Source of the DNA: Bacillota bacterium
Lineage (GTDB): Bacteria > Bacillota > DTU030 > DUMP01
NCBI GenBank assembly: GCA_012837285.1
Contig: DURJ01000008.1
Coordinates: 1 to 47,073 of the forward strand
Direction: 5' to 3'
DNA length: 47,073 nucleotides
Shown: positions 21,506 to 28,146 of the stretch, in pieces
Numbering within the stretch: the stretch's first letter is position 1
Layout of the letters: each line of letters opens with the position of its first letter
Translations under genes and position numbers: made by a program
Notes under the pieces: model-generated
Told to the model about the DNA's origin: nothing
The model's input: the letters and a program-made list of their open reading frames with translations, nothing else
Database searches by the model: none

Positions 21506-22045
21506 CTACTTTCTAGCAGCGTCTCGTCCTTTTTCAATCGCTTCTCTGTTAAGCGGGAGGAGATTCTGTCTGTGTGCTGGTAGGTTTTTTCTTAGTGCTT
21601 CCAACACACTGTCGGGAGTCACCACCCCGGTAGCTTCTACCACCGCGCCTAAGGCCACCATGTTGGCTACCCGAGCGTTCCCCAATTCATTGGCAACTCC
21701 GGTAGCAGGCACCTTAACTACGGTTACATCCTGCCGTTTGGGCTCACGGGTTACCAAGGAAGAATTAATTACCAGCACACCGCCGGGCTTCACTGCCTTC
21801 TCAAACTTATCCAGTGAAGGTAGATTCATAGCGACAACGCAACTTGGACTGCTTACCACCGGTGAGCCGATTTCGCGTTCCGAGACAATCACAGTGCAGT
21901 TAGCGGTACCGCCCCGCATCTCCGGTCCGTACGACGGAATCCAGGATACTTTCTTACCCTCATCCATGGCTGCGTGGGCTAGTAGCTGGCCCATGAGCAA
22001 TACACCCTGACCACCGAAACCAGCAAAGATAAACTCATGTTGCAT
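21506..22045 (-). CDS. 2-oxoacid:ferredoxin oxidoreductase gamma subunit
   Basis: Catalytic-core subunit (pyruvate/ketoisovalerate oxidoreductase gamma domain) of a four-subunit, CoA-dependent 2-oxoacid:ferredoxin oxidoreductase. The 179-aa protein shows the family opening FAGFGGQGVLLMGQLLAHAA and the IPSYGPEMRGGTANC motif (about residues 37-51). It starts directly after the beta-subunit stop, without spacing, and is the last gene of the operon. The subunit layout (separate alpha, beta, gamma and small ferredoxin) fits KorABCD or VorABCD. Substrate is not determined by the sequence; the butyrate kinase context favours branched-chain 2-oxoacids. Confidence 0.9.
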   Translation of the reverse strand: MQHEFIFAGFGGQGVLLMGQLLAHAAMDEGKKVSWIPSYGPEMRGGTANCTVIVSEREIGSPVVSSPSCVVAMNLPSLDKFEKAVKPGGVLVINSSLVTREPKRQDVTVVKVPATGVANELGNARVANMVALGAVVEATGVVTPDSVLEALRKNLPAHRQNLLPLNREAIEKGRDAARK

Positions 22046-22792
22046 CTACTCCACCTCCTTGGGAACCTTGAAGTCACCTAAGGGGTAGTATGGCATCATA
22101 TTGTCTTCAAGCCATCTTAGAGCTTTTTCAGGTGCAAGACCCCAGTTCGTAGGACAAGTGGACAGAACTTCCACTAAGGCGAAACCGTTGTTCTTAACTT
22201 GAATTTCAAAGGCTTTCTTGATAGCTCGTTTTGCTTTTTGGATATTGGCCGGAGAGTTGACTGCTACCCGAGCAATATATTGCGGAGCAACAAGGGTGGA
22301 TAGCATTTCGGCCATACGGATAGGATATCCACAGAAATCTACATCACGGCCGTAGGGCGAAGTGGTCGTCTTTTGGCCGGGTAAGGTAGTGGGCGCCATC
22401 TGCCCACCGGTCATGCCATAAATAGCGTTATTGACATAAATAACAGTGATAGCCTCACCGCGATTAGCTGCATGCACAATCTCAGCTGTACCGATAGAAG
22501 CCAAGTCTCCGTCCCCTTGATACGTAAAGACAATGCGATCTGGAAGCGCCCGCTTGATGCCGGTAGCTACAGCAGGAGCTCGACCATGCGCCGCTTCCTG
22601 GAAATCCAGGTTAAAGTAATTATAGGCCAAGACTGAACAGCCCACGGGCGCCACTCCAACGGTGCGCTCGGCCACATCTAATTCGTCAATGGCTTCGGCC
22701 ACCAAGCGGTGAATTACGCCATGAGTACACCCGGGACAATAGTGGGTCTGTACATCTGCCAAGGAACGGGGGCGATCAAATACTAGTTTCAT
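22046..22792 (-). CDS. 2-oxoacid:ferredoxin oxidoreductase beta subunit (TPP-binding)
   Basis: Thiamine diphosphate-binding subunit. The 248-aa protein has HYCPGCTHG near the N-terminus and a TPP/magnesium motif [21 protein letters not shown] (about residues 92-112), followed by [17 protein letters not shown]. It starts with an ATG that overlaps the alpha-subunit stop by 4 nt (ATGA), so synthesis of the two subunits is coupled. Length is normal for KorB/VorA-type chains. The enzyme decarboxylates a 2-oxoacid to acyl-CoA and reduces ferredoxin. Confidence 0.93.
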
Positions 22793-23859
22793 GCCTCACA
22801 CCTCCCGGCCATAATCTTTTCAATCTTTGCCTGGACTTCTTCCGGCGATGGTACAATACCGCCTACACGCCCCAAGAAGTGCACTGGCCGGCGGCACTTA
22901 AGAGCAAGCTGGACATCTTCTATCATCTGGCCACAGTTCATTTCTACTGATAGAAATACGCGCTCTTTTTCGCCTAAGCGAGCCAAGCTTTCATCAGGAA
23001 ACGGCCATAAGCTTATCGGACGAAATAGTCCGGCCTTAATACCCTTTTCGCGGGCCATATCAATAGCGCTCCGGCAGATGCGAGCCACTGTGCCGAAAGC
23101 AACCAAAACTATGTCGGCATCGTCGGTCAAGTATTCTTCCGACTGCTTTTGAGTGGCCATAATGTCAGCGTATTTCTCTTGTAATTTTCGGTTGTGGGCT
23201 TCAAGACGCTCAGGCATTAACTCCAGAGAATGGATGATGTTTCTCTGACGATCTCCTTTATAACCGGTGGTAGCCCAAGGCTTTTCCGGTAGCTTTACCT
23301 CGCTTCTGTCCGGAAAACTCACCGGCTCCATCATTTGACCTAGCAGTCCGTCCCCCATTATCATTACCGGGTTACGATACTTGTCCGCCAAGTCAAAAGC
23401 CAAGATGGTTAGATCCACAATCTCTTGGGCTGAAGCGGGAGCCAACACAATAAGGTGATAATCTCCATGGCCGCCGCCTTTAGTAGCCTGGAGGTAATCT
23501 GATTGGGCCGGTTGGATACTTCCTAGTCCCGGTCCACCACGAGACATGTTTACAATTACACAAGGTAGCTCGGCCCCGGCAATATACGACAGCCCTTCTT
23601 GTTTAAGGCTGATACCGGGGCTGGAGGAAGATGTCATTACCCGAGCACCGGCACCGGCAGCACCGTATACCATGTTGATAGCAGCAATTTCGGATTCCGC
23701 TTGTAGGAACACTCGACCAATTTCCGGCATGCGCCGTGATAGATACTCCGGTAACTCGCTCTGAGGTGTAATAGGATAAGCAAAATAAAGTCGGCAGCCG
23801 GCTTGCAGCGCTGCTTCCCCCAAGGCCTCGTTACCTTTCATCAAGAGCTTTTCGCTCAT
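22789..23859 (-). CDS. 2-oxoacid:ferredoxin oxidoreductase alpha subunit (VorB/KorA type)
   Basis: Pyrimidine-domain subunit of the oxidoreductase. The 356-aa protein opens with [31 protein letters not shown] (conserved YPITP at about 28-32), then [30 protein letters not shown] and [12 protein letters not shown]. The ATG at 23859 has GGAGGGGAG upstream; a longer frame to 23949 is unlikely. It follows the ferredoxin gene by 23 nt. Automatic pipelines would likely call it 3-methyl-2-oxobutanoate dehydrogenase subunit VorB. That substrate agrees with the neighbouring buk and the BkdR-like regulator but remains inference. Confidence 0.93.
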
Positions 23860-23882
23860 ACTTCTCCCCTCCGTTCGCTTCT

Positions 23883-24095
23883 TTATTCTCGATACACTTG
23901 AATAACACAATCCGGGCATATACGGGCGCAGGTAGCGCAGCCGGTACATTTGTCCGGATCAGATACTGAAGCTGGATGATAGCCCAATTTGTTAATCTTT
24001 TCGCTCATAACTAAGATCTTGGTGGGACATACGGTTGTGCAAAGTTCGCAGCCTTTGCACCGATCTTCATTGAACACCACTTTCCCACGGGCCAT
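23883..24095 (-). CDS. Ferredoxin-type delta subunit (2x[4Fe-4S])
   Basis: A 70-aa polyferredoxin-type subunit with two CxxCxxCxxxCP motifs: [12 protein letters not shown] (about residues 13-24) and [12 protein letters not shown] (about 50-61), each binding a [4Fe-4S] cluster. It passes electrons from the catalytic core to soluble ferredoxin. It begins 12 nt after the P-loop gene and is the first oxidoreductase subunit in the operon, the usual KorD/VorD position. Confidence 0.92.
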
Positions 24096-24107: not shown

Positions 24108-24854
24108 TTACTGTCTCTGCTGACGGTGAGTTAGGGCCGCTTGGGCGGCCATGACCGATCTCCGATCCCGGGCAAGAACAGGGCTCTTATACCAAGGGGG
24201 CAACAAAGTGATAGTGATTGGAAATATTGGTGCTGCTAAAGTGCCGATACTTAAAATCAGGTCTTCTCGCACCCCTACCCCCACTACTGGAATACCGCTA
24301 TCTGCTCCCGCAGCGGCGATGATTTCTAATCCGGTCTGAATGACCTCGGGTGTAGTTTCCAAAGCAAGGTTGGAATTAGCCACCAGACCGGTCACTTTCA
24401 GGTGCGTAGCATTCTCAATTGCCAATAGCATGTTTTTGATACCGTTAACATCCTTGGTAAAAGGTCGACAAGTATTGATTACCAGTAGCAGCTCATGTGG
24501 CAGCGATTCTAATTGATCACTGAAACGGCCCAGGGCTGTAGCACCAATATCGTCACCGCCCACATCCACCACTACATGCAATTCAGGATCGTCGAATGCT
24601 CCTTTGATACGCGGAACTATAATAGGGAGATCCGCTTGTGCCAATTCCCCCGGCGGCACAATCACCTCGATTCCTTGAGCTGTGAGTTCTTCGGTCACGT
24701 CTCGGGATCGAAAATAGGGGCTGACTATATCCATATCTACAATAGCGACTTTCTCCCGTTGCTTTGCCAGAGCACGGACATAATTGATGGCGATTTCCGT
24801 TTTACCGCTGCCGAATGCCCCAACGAAAATTGTGATCCGACTCTCAAAATGCAT
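24108..24854 (-). CDS. P-loop NTPase of the buk/2-oxoacid oxidoreductase operon
   Basis: A 248-aa protein with a MinD/CobQ-like nucleotide-binding fold: Walker A FVGAFGSGKTE (about residues 9-19), a VAIVDMDIVSPYFRSRD switch and a HVVVDVGGDDIGATALG Walker-B-like region. No substrate domain is evident. I chose the ATG at 24854 with AGAGGG 6 nt upstream; a TTG at 24890 overlaps the buk stop. Its position between buk and the ferredoxin subunit suggests a dedicated maturation or regulatory role, which I cannot specify. I have a general memory of similar genes beside buk in other Clostridia but cannot cite one. Confidence 0.72.
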   Translation of the reverse strand: MHFESRITIFVGAFGSGKTEIAINYVRALAKQREKVAIVDMDIVSPYFRSRDVTEELTAQGIEVIVPPGELAQADLPIIVPRIKGAFDDPELHVVVDVGGDDIGATALGRFSDQLESLPHELLLVINTCRPFTKDVNGIKNMLLAIENATHLKVTGLVANSNLALETTPEVIQTGLEIIAAAGADSGIPVVGVGVREDLILSIGTLAAPIFPITITLLPPWYKSPVLARDRRSVMAAQAALTHRQQRQ

Positions 24855-24886
24855 AATCTGCCCTCTCAGCTTAAAGTATTTCAGCT

Positions 24887-25945
24887 TCAAACATACTTGC
24901 GCGCTGTTTCCTCCTGGTTAAGAACACGAAGGGCTCCTTGCGCCAAAGCTTCCATCTCACTCTCACCAGGATAGACCAATACCGGTGCCAAGAAATCCAC
25001 CCGCTCTTTAATCCAAGTGGTCAACAGTTCGGAATGAGCCATCCCCCCGGTCAGAACAATGGCATCCAGTTTGCCACCAAAGGTTGCTGTCAAAGCACCG
25101 ATGTTTTTTGCTACTTGGTAGGCTAAGGCTCGAAAAATCAACTCTGCTTCCTTATCTCCGGCCATGGCCCGTTCTTGTACTTCCCGGGTATCAATTGTCC
25201 CCAAATGTGCCATGAAACCGCCGGAACCTTTCACCATACGCATAATCTCTTCGTAGGTAAAACGACCGCTATAACACAACCGAACCAAATCGCCTACAGG
25301 AAGGGTGCCGCTTCTTTCAGGCGTCATCGGCCCTTCCCCGTCCAGAGCATTGTTAACGTCCACCACCCGCCCCATCTTATGCGCACCGATAGAGATACCG
25401 CCGCCCATATGAGCAACAATTAGGTTCAGCTCTTGATAAGGACGAGCCAACGCTTTTGCTGCTCGACGAGCAACTGCTTTTTGGTTCAGGGCATGAAACT
25501 TGCTCTGGCGCGGCAATTCCGGCAGACCTGAGATGCGGGCCACATCGTCGAGCTCATCCACCACCACCGGATCCACGGTGAAAGCCGGGATTCCTCCGGC
25601 CTCTTGGGCTAGTTCATAAGCCAAAATCGGCCCTAGATTGGACGCATGTTCACCCCACTTAGCGGATTTCAAATCCTCAACCATCTGTTGGCTGATGCTG
25701 TACGTACCACCAGAGAGGGGCTTGGTGAGTCCTCCTCTGCCAACCACTGCTGACAATGAGGCCAAAGAAGTATTCTTCTTAGTCATAACAGCCAAAATAG
25801 CCTTTTTACGAAGGCCGTATTGCTTTGTTACAGAGGCACAGGCTTCTAATTCTGCCGGCAGGTGAGACAGGCTTTCCGTATAAAGCAACTGATTGTTATC
25901 AAACAAAGCAAGCTTGGTGGATGTAGAACCCGGGTTTAAAACCAA
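24887..25945 (-). CDS. buk: Butyrate kinase
   Basis: Cytoplasmic kinase that makes ATP from butyryl-, isobutyryl- or other acyl-phosphate. It belongs to the acetokinase family: NPGSTSTKLA near the N-terminus, SKFHALNQKAVARR (about residues 148-161), AHMGGGISIGAH (about 178-189) and VLTGGMAHS near the end. At 352 aa it has the usual length. The frame offers only TTG at 25945, or a rare ATT one codon earlier, which would restore the conserved ILVLNPGST opening; AAGGG lies upstream. It is first in the sigma-54 operon. The partner phosphotransbutyrylase is not in the window. Confidence 0.94.
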   Translation of the reverse strand: MVLNPGSTSTKLALFDNNQLLYTESLSHLPAELEACASVTKQYGLRKKAILAVMTKKNTSLASLSAVVGRGGLTKPLSGGTYSISQQMVEDLKSAKWGEHASNLGPILAYELAQEAGGIPAFTVDPVVVDELDDVARISGLPELPRQSKFHALNQKAVARRAAKALARPYQELNLIVAHMGGGISIGAHKMGRVVDVNNALDGEGPMTPERSGTLPVGDLVRLCYSGRFTYEEIMRMVKGSGGFMAHLGTIDTREVQERAMAGDKEAELIFRALAYQVAKNIGALTATFGGKLDAIVLTGGMAHSELLTTWIKERVDFLAPVLVYPGESEMEALAQGALRVLNQEETARKYV

Positions 25946-26017
25946 AATACGCGTTTCCCTTCACCCCCTCCTTAGTAATACCTATTGAGCCGCAAGGGTA
26001 GTACCCGACTTATGTAA

Positions 26018-26034
26018 TGCAAGTAACATGCCAA
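26018..26034 (-). promoter_or_regulatory. Sigma-54 promoter of the buk operon
   Basis: On the minus strand TTGGCAT (-24) and TTGCA (-12) are separated by GTTAC, giving the obligatory GG-N10-GC spacing; 12 of the core consensus positions fit. The predicted start is about 26007, 60 bp before buk. The adjacent sigma-54 activator gene makes this assignment strong. Confidence 0.88.
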
Positions 26035-26160
26035 CGCTCAATGATCCTTTTGATACAATATCTGCCACGATCAGTGCGCAGTTACAAGCCTGTTGTGCTC
26101 TTAGTCAATAAAAAAGCCATTCCTTTCTAGCCAAAGAACGGTCTTAGGTCGCAGAAGGTT

Positions 26161-26202
26161 GCAACTCTGCAATACATTGCCTGCAGTATACTGCAGAGTT
26201 GC
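26161..26202. promoter_or_regulatory. Palindromic upstream activating site for the sigma-54 regulator
   Basis: An 11-bp perfect inverted repeat, GCAACTCTGCA (26161-26171) and TGCAGAGTTGC (26192-26202), encloses a perfect 16-bp palindrome CTGCAGTATACTGCAG (26181-26196). It lies about 130-170 bp upstream of the sigma-54 promoter, the typical enhancer distance. It also follows the activator stop codon, but no T-run follows on the minus strand, so a terminator role is less likely. Binding by the BkdR-like protein is inference. Confidence 0.68.
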
Positions 26203-26203
26203 C

Positions 26204-27907
26204 TTAAGTTGTAATGCCATACTTGTCCAGCTTGTAGTACAGCGTTCGCGGTGAAATGCCAAGTAATTTAGCCGCTACAGTCTTGTTGCCCTTGGCATGG
26301 TCCAACGCCTGCTCCACAGCCCTCTGTTCAGTTATCGCCGTCAATTGGGCCAGGGTTTTTCCCGGAACCCAGCGAGCAGTGGGTAAGCTGCGGGTAGCCC
26401 GAGTATCCATGCCAAAGCCGCCCATAGGAGGCAGGTGGTGTGACTGCATCGCCGTTTCGTTGTACTTCATATTGATCATGGCTCGGCCCAGCAAATTCTC
26501 TAGCTCACGAACATTGCCCGGCCAATCATAAGCTACTAAAGCAGAAAGAACCTGCGGAGCTGCTTTCTCTACGGCCCGGCCAAATTGTTGATTGAACTTA
26601 CGTAAAAGAAAGACAACCAAGGGAGGCACATCATCTTTCCGATAGCGCAGCGGCGGAATGAAGATGGGGACCACATTCAACCGATAATATAGGTCCTCTC
26701 GAAAACGTCCCTCTTCTACAGCTTGCTCCAAATTAGCATTAGTAGCTGCAATAACCCGCGTATTGACAGAAATAGCTCGCGTCCCCCCAACCCGGACAAT
26801 CTCTTTTTCTTGCAGTACTCGGAGCAATTTTGCTTGTAACGCAGGGCTAATCTCTCCTATTTCATCCAAAAAGATGGTCCCTCCGACTGCTTCTTCGAAA
26901 TATCCTTTCTTGCCTTGCCTTCTAGCTCCGGTGAAGGCTCCTTCTTCATAGCCGAAAAGTTCGCTTTCCAGTAGGGATTCGGCAATAGCAGTGCAATTGA
27001 CCCGGACAAACTGTCCCCGCCGCCATCGACTGGCATTATGAATAGCGTGGGCAAACAGCTCTTTCCCAGTGCCGCTTTCGCCCCGTAGCAGAACTGTGGC
27101 CGGTAGGTCTGCTGCTCGTTTAGCTTGGTCTATTGCCGCCTTCAGCTCCGGACTGTCGCCGATAATATCCTCAAAAGTGTATTTGGCTTCCAAGTGTCTG
27201 ATTCTCTGCTTGGCTTGAGCCAACTCTTCTGTAAGCTGCTTGATTTGGGACACATCATGAATGACTCCGACACTACCGCGCAAGTGTCCATGCACGACAA
27301 TAGGGGCTACATTCACAATGACATCTCTTTTCTGGGGACCTACTTTGAGTCTGGCGCCTTGGATCGGCTTGCCAGTATCTAACACTTTCAAATGAATACT
27401 TTCTCCTTCGGCAATATCGACAGTGGCCGGTTTTCCCAGCACATCTTTTTGAGTCAGTCCAGTCAGACGGGTATAGGCCGGATTGACCAAGATGCCGTAG
27501 CCGCGCTCATCAACCACCGAAATAGCATCTTGAGTGGCGTCGATAATAGCTGCCAACATAAGTTTTGCTTGGATGAGGTTATTAATCTCGTGACGAAGTC
27601 GAGCAGTTAAGAACAAAAACACCGGCAAAGCTTCCGGGCCCACTACTAACATTCCCCTTAATCTGAGTGACTGGACCAGCCTTTGGGCTTCGGTGCTACC
27701 ACAAATGACCATGTCTAATCCCGGTAAAAAGGCAAGTTCTTCAATAGCTACTCCTGGTAAAGCCCGTAAGGATGGAGGAAGATCATGGAGATTTTCATCC
27801 CCACAACGTACATAAGCCAGAGGTTGCAGAAATGTGCTCTCCTCAAAGCATTCTGCCACTCCCCTGGCATCGTCGGCTGCAAGATCGCTTATTGCCACCC
27901 CGATCAA
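26204..27907 (-). CDS. Sigma-54-dependent transcriptional activator, BkdR-like
   Basis: Enhancer-binding protein of about 567 aa. Domains in order: an unassigned N-terminal sensory region (about 1-105), a PAS domain (about 115-225, with ISVVDERGYGILVNPAYTRLTGL), and a sigma-54 AAA+ ATPase domain (about 250-475) with Walker A GESGTGKE, the sigma-54 contact loop GAFTGA and the Walker B region GGTIFLDEIGEI. A Fis-type helix-turn-helix follows at the C-terminus (KTVAAKLLGISPRTLYYKL). TTG at 27907 has AGGGGG 9 nt upstream; a GTG at 27925 overlaps that site. It lies immediately upstream of the sigma-54 buk operon, as bkdR does in Bacillus subtilis, and probably controls it. Confidence 0.92.
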   Translation of the reverse strand: MIGVAISDLAADDARGVAECFEESTFLQPLAYVRCGDENLHDLPPSLRALPGVAIEELAFLPGLDMVICGSTEAQRLVQSLRLRGMLVVGPEALPVFLFLTARLRHEINNLIQAKLMLAAIIDATQDAISVVDERGYGILVNPAYTRLTGLTQKDVLGKPATVDIAEGESIHLKVLDTGKPIQGARLKVGPQKRDVIVNVAPIVVHGHLRGSVGVIHDVSQIKQLTEELAQAKQRIRHLEAKYTFEDIIGDSPELKAAIDQAKRAADLPATVLLRGESGTGKELFAHAIHNASRWRRGQFVRVNCTAIAESLLESELFGYEEGAFTGARRQGKKGYFEEAVGGTIFLDEIGEISPALQAKLLRVLQEKEIVRVGGTRAISVNTRVIAATNANLEQAVEEGRFREDLYYRLNVVPIFIPPLRYRKDDVPPLVVFLLRKFNQQFGRAVEKAAPQVLSALVAYDWPGNVRELENLLGRAMINMKYNETAMQSHHLPPMGGFGMDTRATRSLPTARWVPGKTLAQLTAITEQRAVEQALDHAKGNKTVAAKLLGISPRTLYYKLDKYGITT

Positions 27908-28146
27908 GTTAGTTTTCCCCCTCACTTAAGGCATTCATTTTAATAAACCTTCATCGTCCTTTATTCGTCATTGCTAGACAAAACTCCTCTAAATGGCCTC
28001 ACCACTTGGTCTTTTTTTGTTCCCAGTTGCGCCGGCCCCCCACTTGTACCCAGTAACCAACTGCCCAACAGAATGTTAGCCCTTGGCCAATTACCCTATT
28101 ATTCCCATTTAGACTGCATGGTCTATTTATGAGCAACCATCTAAAC

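Follow-up and report, generated by a model that had tools for sequence, protein, structure and literature searches.

The window, a 47,073-nucleotide stretch of DNA from a Bacillota bacterium, carries on its minus strand a gene for a predicted sigma-54 activator, followed in order by a row of short dyads, a terminator-like hairpin, a -24/-12 promoter element, and an operon headed by a butyrate kinase gene (buk) that continues into the subunits of a 2-oxoacid:ferredoxin oxidoreductase (vor). The features are as follows:

26204 to 27925, minus strand: BkdR-type enhancer-binding activator, 573 aa (Pfam domains, ortholog clade, AF2 model of the N-terminus)
26161 to 26202, no strand: 11-bp inverted repeat, incidental
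26182 to 26195, minus strand: putative enhancer dyad 1, TGCAGTATACTGCA, core of a 16-bp palindrome
26168 to 26181, minus strand: putative enhancer dyad 2, GGCAATGTATTGCA, abutting dyad 1
26150 to 26163, minus strand: putative enhancer dyad 3, TGCAACCTTCTGCG, centre 18 bp from that of dyad 2
26108 to 26141, minus strand: terminator-like hairpin and T-run
26018 to 26034, minus strand: sigma-54 -24/-12 promoter, TTGGCATGTTACTTGCA
24887 to 25951, minus strand: buk, butyrate/branched-chain acyl kinase (TIGR02707, 507 bits; cut-off 289)
24108 to 24890, minus strand: CbiA/ParA-like P-loop protein, role unassigned (PF01656, E 4.8e-8)
23886 to 24095, minus strand: two-cluster 4Fe-4S ferredoxin-type subunit, 70 aa shown (two CxxCxxCxxxC-type motifs in the translation)
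22789 to 23862, minus strand: vorB, 2-oxoacid:ferredoxin oxidoreductase alpha subunit (NF005507 VorB, 575.9 bits, cut-off 399; the profile match gives an estimated start)
22046 to 22792, minus strand: 2-oxoacid:ferredoxin oxidoreductase beta (TPP) subunit (PF02775, E 8e-23)
21506 to 22045, minus strand: 2-oxoacid:ferredoxin oxidoreductase gamma subunit (PF01558, E 4.2e-45; TIGR02175, 88.6 bits, cut-off 81.1)

The operon contains none of the genes of the branched-chain 2-oxoacid dehydrogenase (BKDH) complex (lpdV, bkdAA, bkdAB, bkdB), which are replaced by the vor subunits, and the buk-vor operon contains no copy of ptb. It should not be called bkd, since the BKDH genes define that operon and the regulator does not. 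The aligned start codon of buk is a non-canonical ACG, with an ATT two codons later and the first TTG at 25945. At the aligned position, one other genome of the family (G001) also has ACG and another (G004) has GCG, while five have TTG, GTG or ATG. The likeliest start is the ATT/ATC two codons on, which translation table 11 permits. The CbiA/ParA-like gene between buk and vor accompanies the operon in 18 of the 85 ortholog stretches described below, 12 of which also have vorB.

Among sigma-54 activators BkdR is a textbook case; BkdR and the bkd operon of Bacillus subtilis were reportedly described by Debarbouille in 1999. The initial annotation had placed a PAS-AAA-Fis activator with a GAFTGA motif next upstream of the operon, and this is what the reading frame at 27925-26204 encodes: the Pfam domains are PAS, Sigma54_activat, AAA lid and Fis-type HTH_8, and GAFTGA is invariant at residues 329-334. 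Two equivalog assignments were rejected, PrdR as the best NCBIfam match (432.7 bits, far under the curated cut-off of 795) and NifA (377.2 bits, far under 528.85). In a tree of 57 AAA+ regions, a branch supported at 100/99 separates 36 orthologs from 21 other activators. B. subtilis BkdR itself is absent from this tree. Two of the orthologs, L050 and L051 (Neobacillus soli and Bacillus sp.), precede ptb-bcd-buk-lpd, the gene order of the B. subtilis bkd operon. Because the window's activator shares a clade (100/99) with Bacillus activators from ptb-bcd-buk-lpd loci, we assign it on phylogenetic grounds as a BkdR ortholog.

The N-terminus of the activator differs from that of its Bacillus-type orthologs, which begin with a Rossmann-like domain bearing GxGxGG (three of three exceed the Pfam DapB_N cut-off). 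The first 116 residues of the window's activator lack GxGxGG, and their AF2 model, made from seven sequences, had a pLDDT of 92.9. The best PDB matches of this model were NAD(P)-binding domains, of which a single one was found at E<0.001 (1nvm, an aldolase-dehydrogenase, E 9.7e-4); Rex repressors matched at E 2.6e-3 and weaker. A Pfam search with the domain gave one sub-threshold match (AlkZ-like, E 0.02), and a profile comparison of the window's N-terminus with the Bacillus-type N-termini (probability score 63, E 6.9e-5 for one comparison) is only suggestive of a link between them. The model predicts a degenerate Rossmann-like domain. Many other orthologs have a PAS domain at the N-terminus and no Rossmann domain. 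Sensing of a nucleotide or acyl-CoA by this N-terminus is guesswork, though the domain gives a testable idea of the activator's signal.

The -24/-12 element reported upstream of buk is real. Read on the minus strand, 26034-26018 is TTGGCATGTTACTTGCA, and the exact word TTGGCAT-N5-TTGCA occurs twice in the 2.17-Mb genome, compared with no occurrence of the backwards control. Its distance from the possible buk start codons is about 66-72 bp, somewhat more than the 60 bp first given. Contig C73 encodes a sigma-54 DNA-binding domain that no stop codon interrupts (E 3.9e-59). A sigma-A start upstream of buk had been named as the observation that would speak against the circuit; in a consensus scan of 25900-26260 we found no sigma-70-type promoter (shuffle mean 0.6), and such a promoter for buk was dropped from consideration. 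The same scan found one terminator-like hairpin (shuffle mean 0.4), at 26141-26117 on the minus strand between the enhancer and the promoter, followed by CTTTTTTATT. Its fold (-10.9 kcal/mol, z -1.06) is weak by itself; the hairpin probably ends the activator transcript and keeps it out of the operon. We consider it extremely improbable that the -24/-12 match arose by chance, with buk transcription coming from a sigma-A promoter or reading through from the activator gene. One consensus match could occur by chance in a genome of 2 Mb, and the weakness of the hairpin would favor read-through, but the position and sequence of the element are conserved in relatives (a sigma-54-like site is present in 71 of the 85 stretches surveyed below), the word is common to the bcd promoter of the same genome, and the scanned region offers no sigma-70-type match.

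Upstream of this promoter, the initial annotation had described an enhancer made of an 11-bp inverted repeat that encloses a perfect 16-bp palindrome. The palindrome, CTGCAGTATACTGCAG, is present at 26181-26196. The repeat exists as well, with arms GCAACTCTGCA (26161-26171) and TGCAGAGTTGC (26192-26202), but its second arm overlaps the palindrome, so there is no strict enclosure, and we rejected it as a functional unit because its outer arm is conserved neither between genomes nor between the buk and bcd enhancers. The conserved unit is instead the row of three 14-bp dyads of the form TGCA-N6-TGCA listed above, of which the palindrome is one. This row (26195-26150) does lie where the enhancer had been placed, between the stop side of the activator gene (26204) and the promoter. 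When the buk and bcd enhancers of four family genomes were aligned, TGCAGTATACTGCA was invariant and was followed by GCA...GC, which belongs to dyad 2, and by TGCAA, both at fixed spacing; the TGCAAC half of dyad 3 was kept in seven of the eight aligned rows and was TGCAAT in the eighth. Conservation of the palindrome in relatives had been proposed as a test, and its core, TGCAGTATACTGC, was found in 8/8 genomes of the window's family and 0/5 of the sister family (control 0). In the window's own genome it occurs at two places (control 0), both ~100-150 bp upstream of the exact promoter words.

We surveyed the dyad in relatives by searching 398 genomes of the phylum with the PAS-AAA-Fis part of the activator (threshold E<=1e-140), which gave 102 matches in 100 genomes. 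We examined 101 of these, the window's included; the one left out, in G005, is cut by a contig end, and one stretch (L187) is only 352 bases long. At 85 of the 101 loci a target-type gene starts within 600 bp downstream (bcd 35, ptb 31, buk 16, cbiA-like 2, and vorB 1). Among these 85 stretches (19,409 bases, the window's included), a perfect TGCA-N6-TGCA was present in 68 (94 copies), a dyad with up to one mismatch in 77, and at least two such dyads in 63. Counted by family, some member of 29/36 families has a perfect dyad. As a control, we ranked all 256 four-letter inverted repeats at N6, and the next best after TGCA reached 15 of the 85 loci; TGCA at other gaps reached at most 15 loci, except at N10 (46 loci), a spacing that neighboring dyads create. 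Distances between dyads peaked at 14 bp (31 cases), 10 bp (18), and 18-19 bp (23), so the spacing of dyads 1 and 2 in the window is the commonest and that of dyads 2 and 3 falls in the last peak. At the remaining 16 of the 101 ortholog loci a perfect dyad was found in only 3. Downstream of other activators (76 fetched, one set aside because its sequence past the stop was too short), a perfect dyad was found in 0/75 and two near-perfect dyads in 1/75.

A perfect dyad is missing from 17 of the 85 stretches, and even a one-mismatch dyad from 8, which include all three f49 genomes, whose activator-bcd pairs have a clear promoter. At two f69 loci (L243 and L253; genomes G240 and G369), we observed dyads between the only sigma-54-like site and bcd, that is, downstream, the reverse of the usual order. 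The dyad-free and the inverted loci may use another site arrangement or promoter. At two further loci (L172 and L184; genomes G126 and G381) a cbiA-like gene lies within ~110 bp of the activator with neither a dyad nor a sigma-54-like site, and there the activator gene may itself belong to the operon, or its target may lie somewhere else.

As a palindrome TGCA-N6-TGCA is generic, and that the activator binds it is predicted from sequence, so the dyads might be bound by a different regulator, such as an operon repressor, while the activator reads something else. We regard this as improbable: the dyads track the activator clade (68/85 ortholog loci compared with 0/75 for other activators), their distance from sigma-54 promoters is that of an enhancer, and of the 15 multi-dyad sites away from the activator gene, described below, 14 co-occur with the activator.

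The palindromic stretch could also be an RNA element of the activator mRNA, a terminator or stabilizing hairpin, rather than an enhancer. It begins directly after the activator stop codon, and as RNA the first 55 nt past the stop form a strong fold (-25.6 kcal/mol, z -4.64). Against this, no T-run follows the stretch and a separate terminator-like site lies further downstream; among the 13 loci that we folded the z-score ranged from -0.2 to -4.6 with differing shapes, even close relatives departing from the window (L159, z -0.73; L163, z -0.21); and the same dyads precede bcd on another contig. We therefore dropped an RNA hairpin as the main role, as the fold is not kept across loci, and consider this reading very improbable. 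By eye, several relatives (L161-L167, L169, and others) have dyads in or beside terminator-like hairpins with T-runs just after the activator stop, and enhancer and activator terminator may overlap in these genomes.

Reading the dyads as an enhancer, we found a second likely target away from the window, so that the circuit is not confined to one 2-kb stretch as had been proposed. The second exact promoter word is on contig C133, with a dyad row upstream of it, before a gene with ELFV dehydrogenase domains of the leucine/valine/phenylalanine type, which we call bcd; its best NCBIfam match, tryptophan dehydrogenase, is under the cut-off and does not fix the exact substrate. No activator gene was present among the open frames of the 11.7-kb C133 stretch. 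The genome contains 18 perfect dyads, three of whose loci were not fetched, and at the 14 loci checked a promoter word lay within 200 bp only at the C133 pair besides the window. In the family, eight sites with TGCAGTATACTGC other than the activator-linked ones were read; they precede bcd in five genomes (G000-G004), a branched-chain amino acid (BCAA) transaminase gene in G006 (TIGR01122, over the cut-off), brnQ in G003 (TIGR00796, over the cut-off), and the buk operon itself in G005. Seven of these eight sites show the strict sigma-54 pattern, and the BrnQ site shows a looser CGGCATTATTCTTGCA by eye.

Across the phylum, a composite pattern of dyad plus promoter occurred in 65/398 genomes (backwards control, 4/398), with 49/100 genomes that have the activator and 16/298 that do not (Fisher 2.7e-21), an association that is partly trivial because many matches are the activator's own downstream (cis) site. 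Forty composite sites that are not at the activator's stop were fetched; 27 of them come from genomes that encode the activator, and 13 come from genomes that lack it. Fifteen of the 40 have at least two dyads, and 13 of these precede the following genes: alanine dehydrogenase (seven, all over the TIGR00518 cut-off), bcd (three), lipoamide dehydrogenase (one), ptb (one), and one transhydrogenase/AlaDH-family gene, whose best match, the transhydrogenase alpha subunit, is under the cut-off. The other two multi-dyad sites (L335 and L353) do not fit. Of the 25 sites left, which carry one dyad each, four stand before buk-ptb-bcd operons and most others before unrelated genes. Because most single-dyad sites precede unrelated genes, a single dyad with a promoter word predicts targets poorly.

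Together, the parts of the system, their conservation, the ortholog clade, and the enhancer shared by buk and bcd are matters of observation. Orthology, synteny, and the conserved promoter and enhancer sequences support the BkdR-type sigma-54 circuit first proposed, and we judge that the window very probably encodes such a circuit for branched-chain amino acid fermentation, with the activator on the dyad row and buk-vor and bcd as targets. Binding, looping, sigma-54 dependence, transcription as an operon, the inducer, and the direction of the pathway are inferred from sequence, and we would picture them as follows. An oligomer of the activator most likely binds the three tandem dyads between its own stop codon and the weak terminator. 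The bound activator would loop to sigma-54 polymerase at the -24/-12 element ~115-150 bp away and, spending ATP, would open the promoter of the genes for buk, the P-loop protein, the ferredoxin, and the vor subunits, while probably acting in trans on bcd as well. The products would convert branched amino acids to oxoacids, oxoacids to acyl-CoA and reduced ferredoxin, and acyl-CoA through acyl phosphate to the acid and ATP.

A broader proposal is possible but doubtful: that Bacillota BkdR-type activators share the TGCA-N6-TGCA code as a phylum-wide amino acid fermentation regulon, and that an ancestral Rossmann domain gauges NAD(H) or acyl-CoA in some of them. Such a regulon would comprise bcd, ptb, buk, vor, lpd, BCAA transaminase, BrnQ, and alanine dehydrogenase in several lineages. 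Amino acid oxidation would then be switched on by redox or acyl-CoA state, and the window's clade, having lost the glycine motif, would sense something else. A defined dyad lets the BkdR regulon be read from genomes and puts unlinked genes, such as those for bcd, brnQ, and alanine dehydrogenase, under a common switch; one regulator would connect the aerobic BKDH pathway of Bacillus with the ferredoxin-based pathway of anaerobes.

Among known systems, the closest is that of Bacillus. The bkd promoter of B. thuringiensis needs sigma-54 and BkdR, as determined with mutant and lacZ assays (PMC4428206), and B. subtilis BkdR acts via an upstream activating sequence (review, PMC6461809); a further source on the Bacillus system is PMC4525379. 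The window resembles these loci in that the activator gene immediately precedes its target operon in the same orientation, in its -24/-12 promoter and upstream activating sequence, in bcd, ptb, and buk as targets, and in the common ortholog clade. It differs in that the oxoacid step is carried by a ferredoxin-dependent oxidoreductase rather than the lipoate-dependent BKDH complex, bcd is unlinked, the activator has one PAS domain instead of two and a Rossmann-like N-terminus without the glycine motif, and the enhancer has three dyads, whereas most Bacillaceae-type loci that we saw have one. The window's activator also has GAFTGA, where S is stated to replace T in B. subtilis BkdR (PMC3162934). 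In the searchable literature, passages name the upstream activating sequence of BkdR without its letters, and no statement was found of a TGCA-N6-TGCA site, which may stand in supplementary tables or the 1999 primary paper, or of a Rossmann-type sigma-54 activator.

Of the 39 activator groups described in Clostridiales, Table 1 of that study lists the window's type of operon for none, and ZypR comes closest (PMC6615313). In both systems an oxoacid:ferredoxin oxidoreductase and a butyrate kinase are encoded close to a sigma-54 activator of the PAS type. By the paper's text alone, however, ZypR serves an indolepyruvate-type (ior) operon, tyrB-iorAB-butK, through an upstream activating sequence TGT-N10-12-ACA, whereas the window has buk-vor and TGCA-N6-TGCA; with both site and target operon unlike, we rejected ZypR membership. 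The type of circuit is known; what appears clearer here than in the searchable papers is the DNA code that it uses and how far it reaches.
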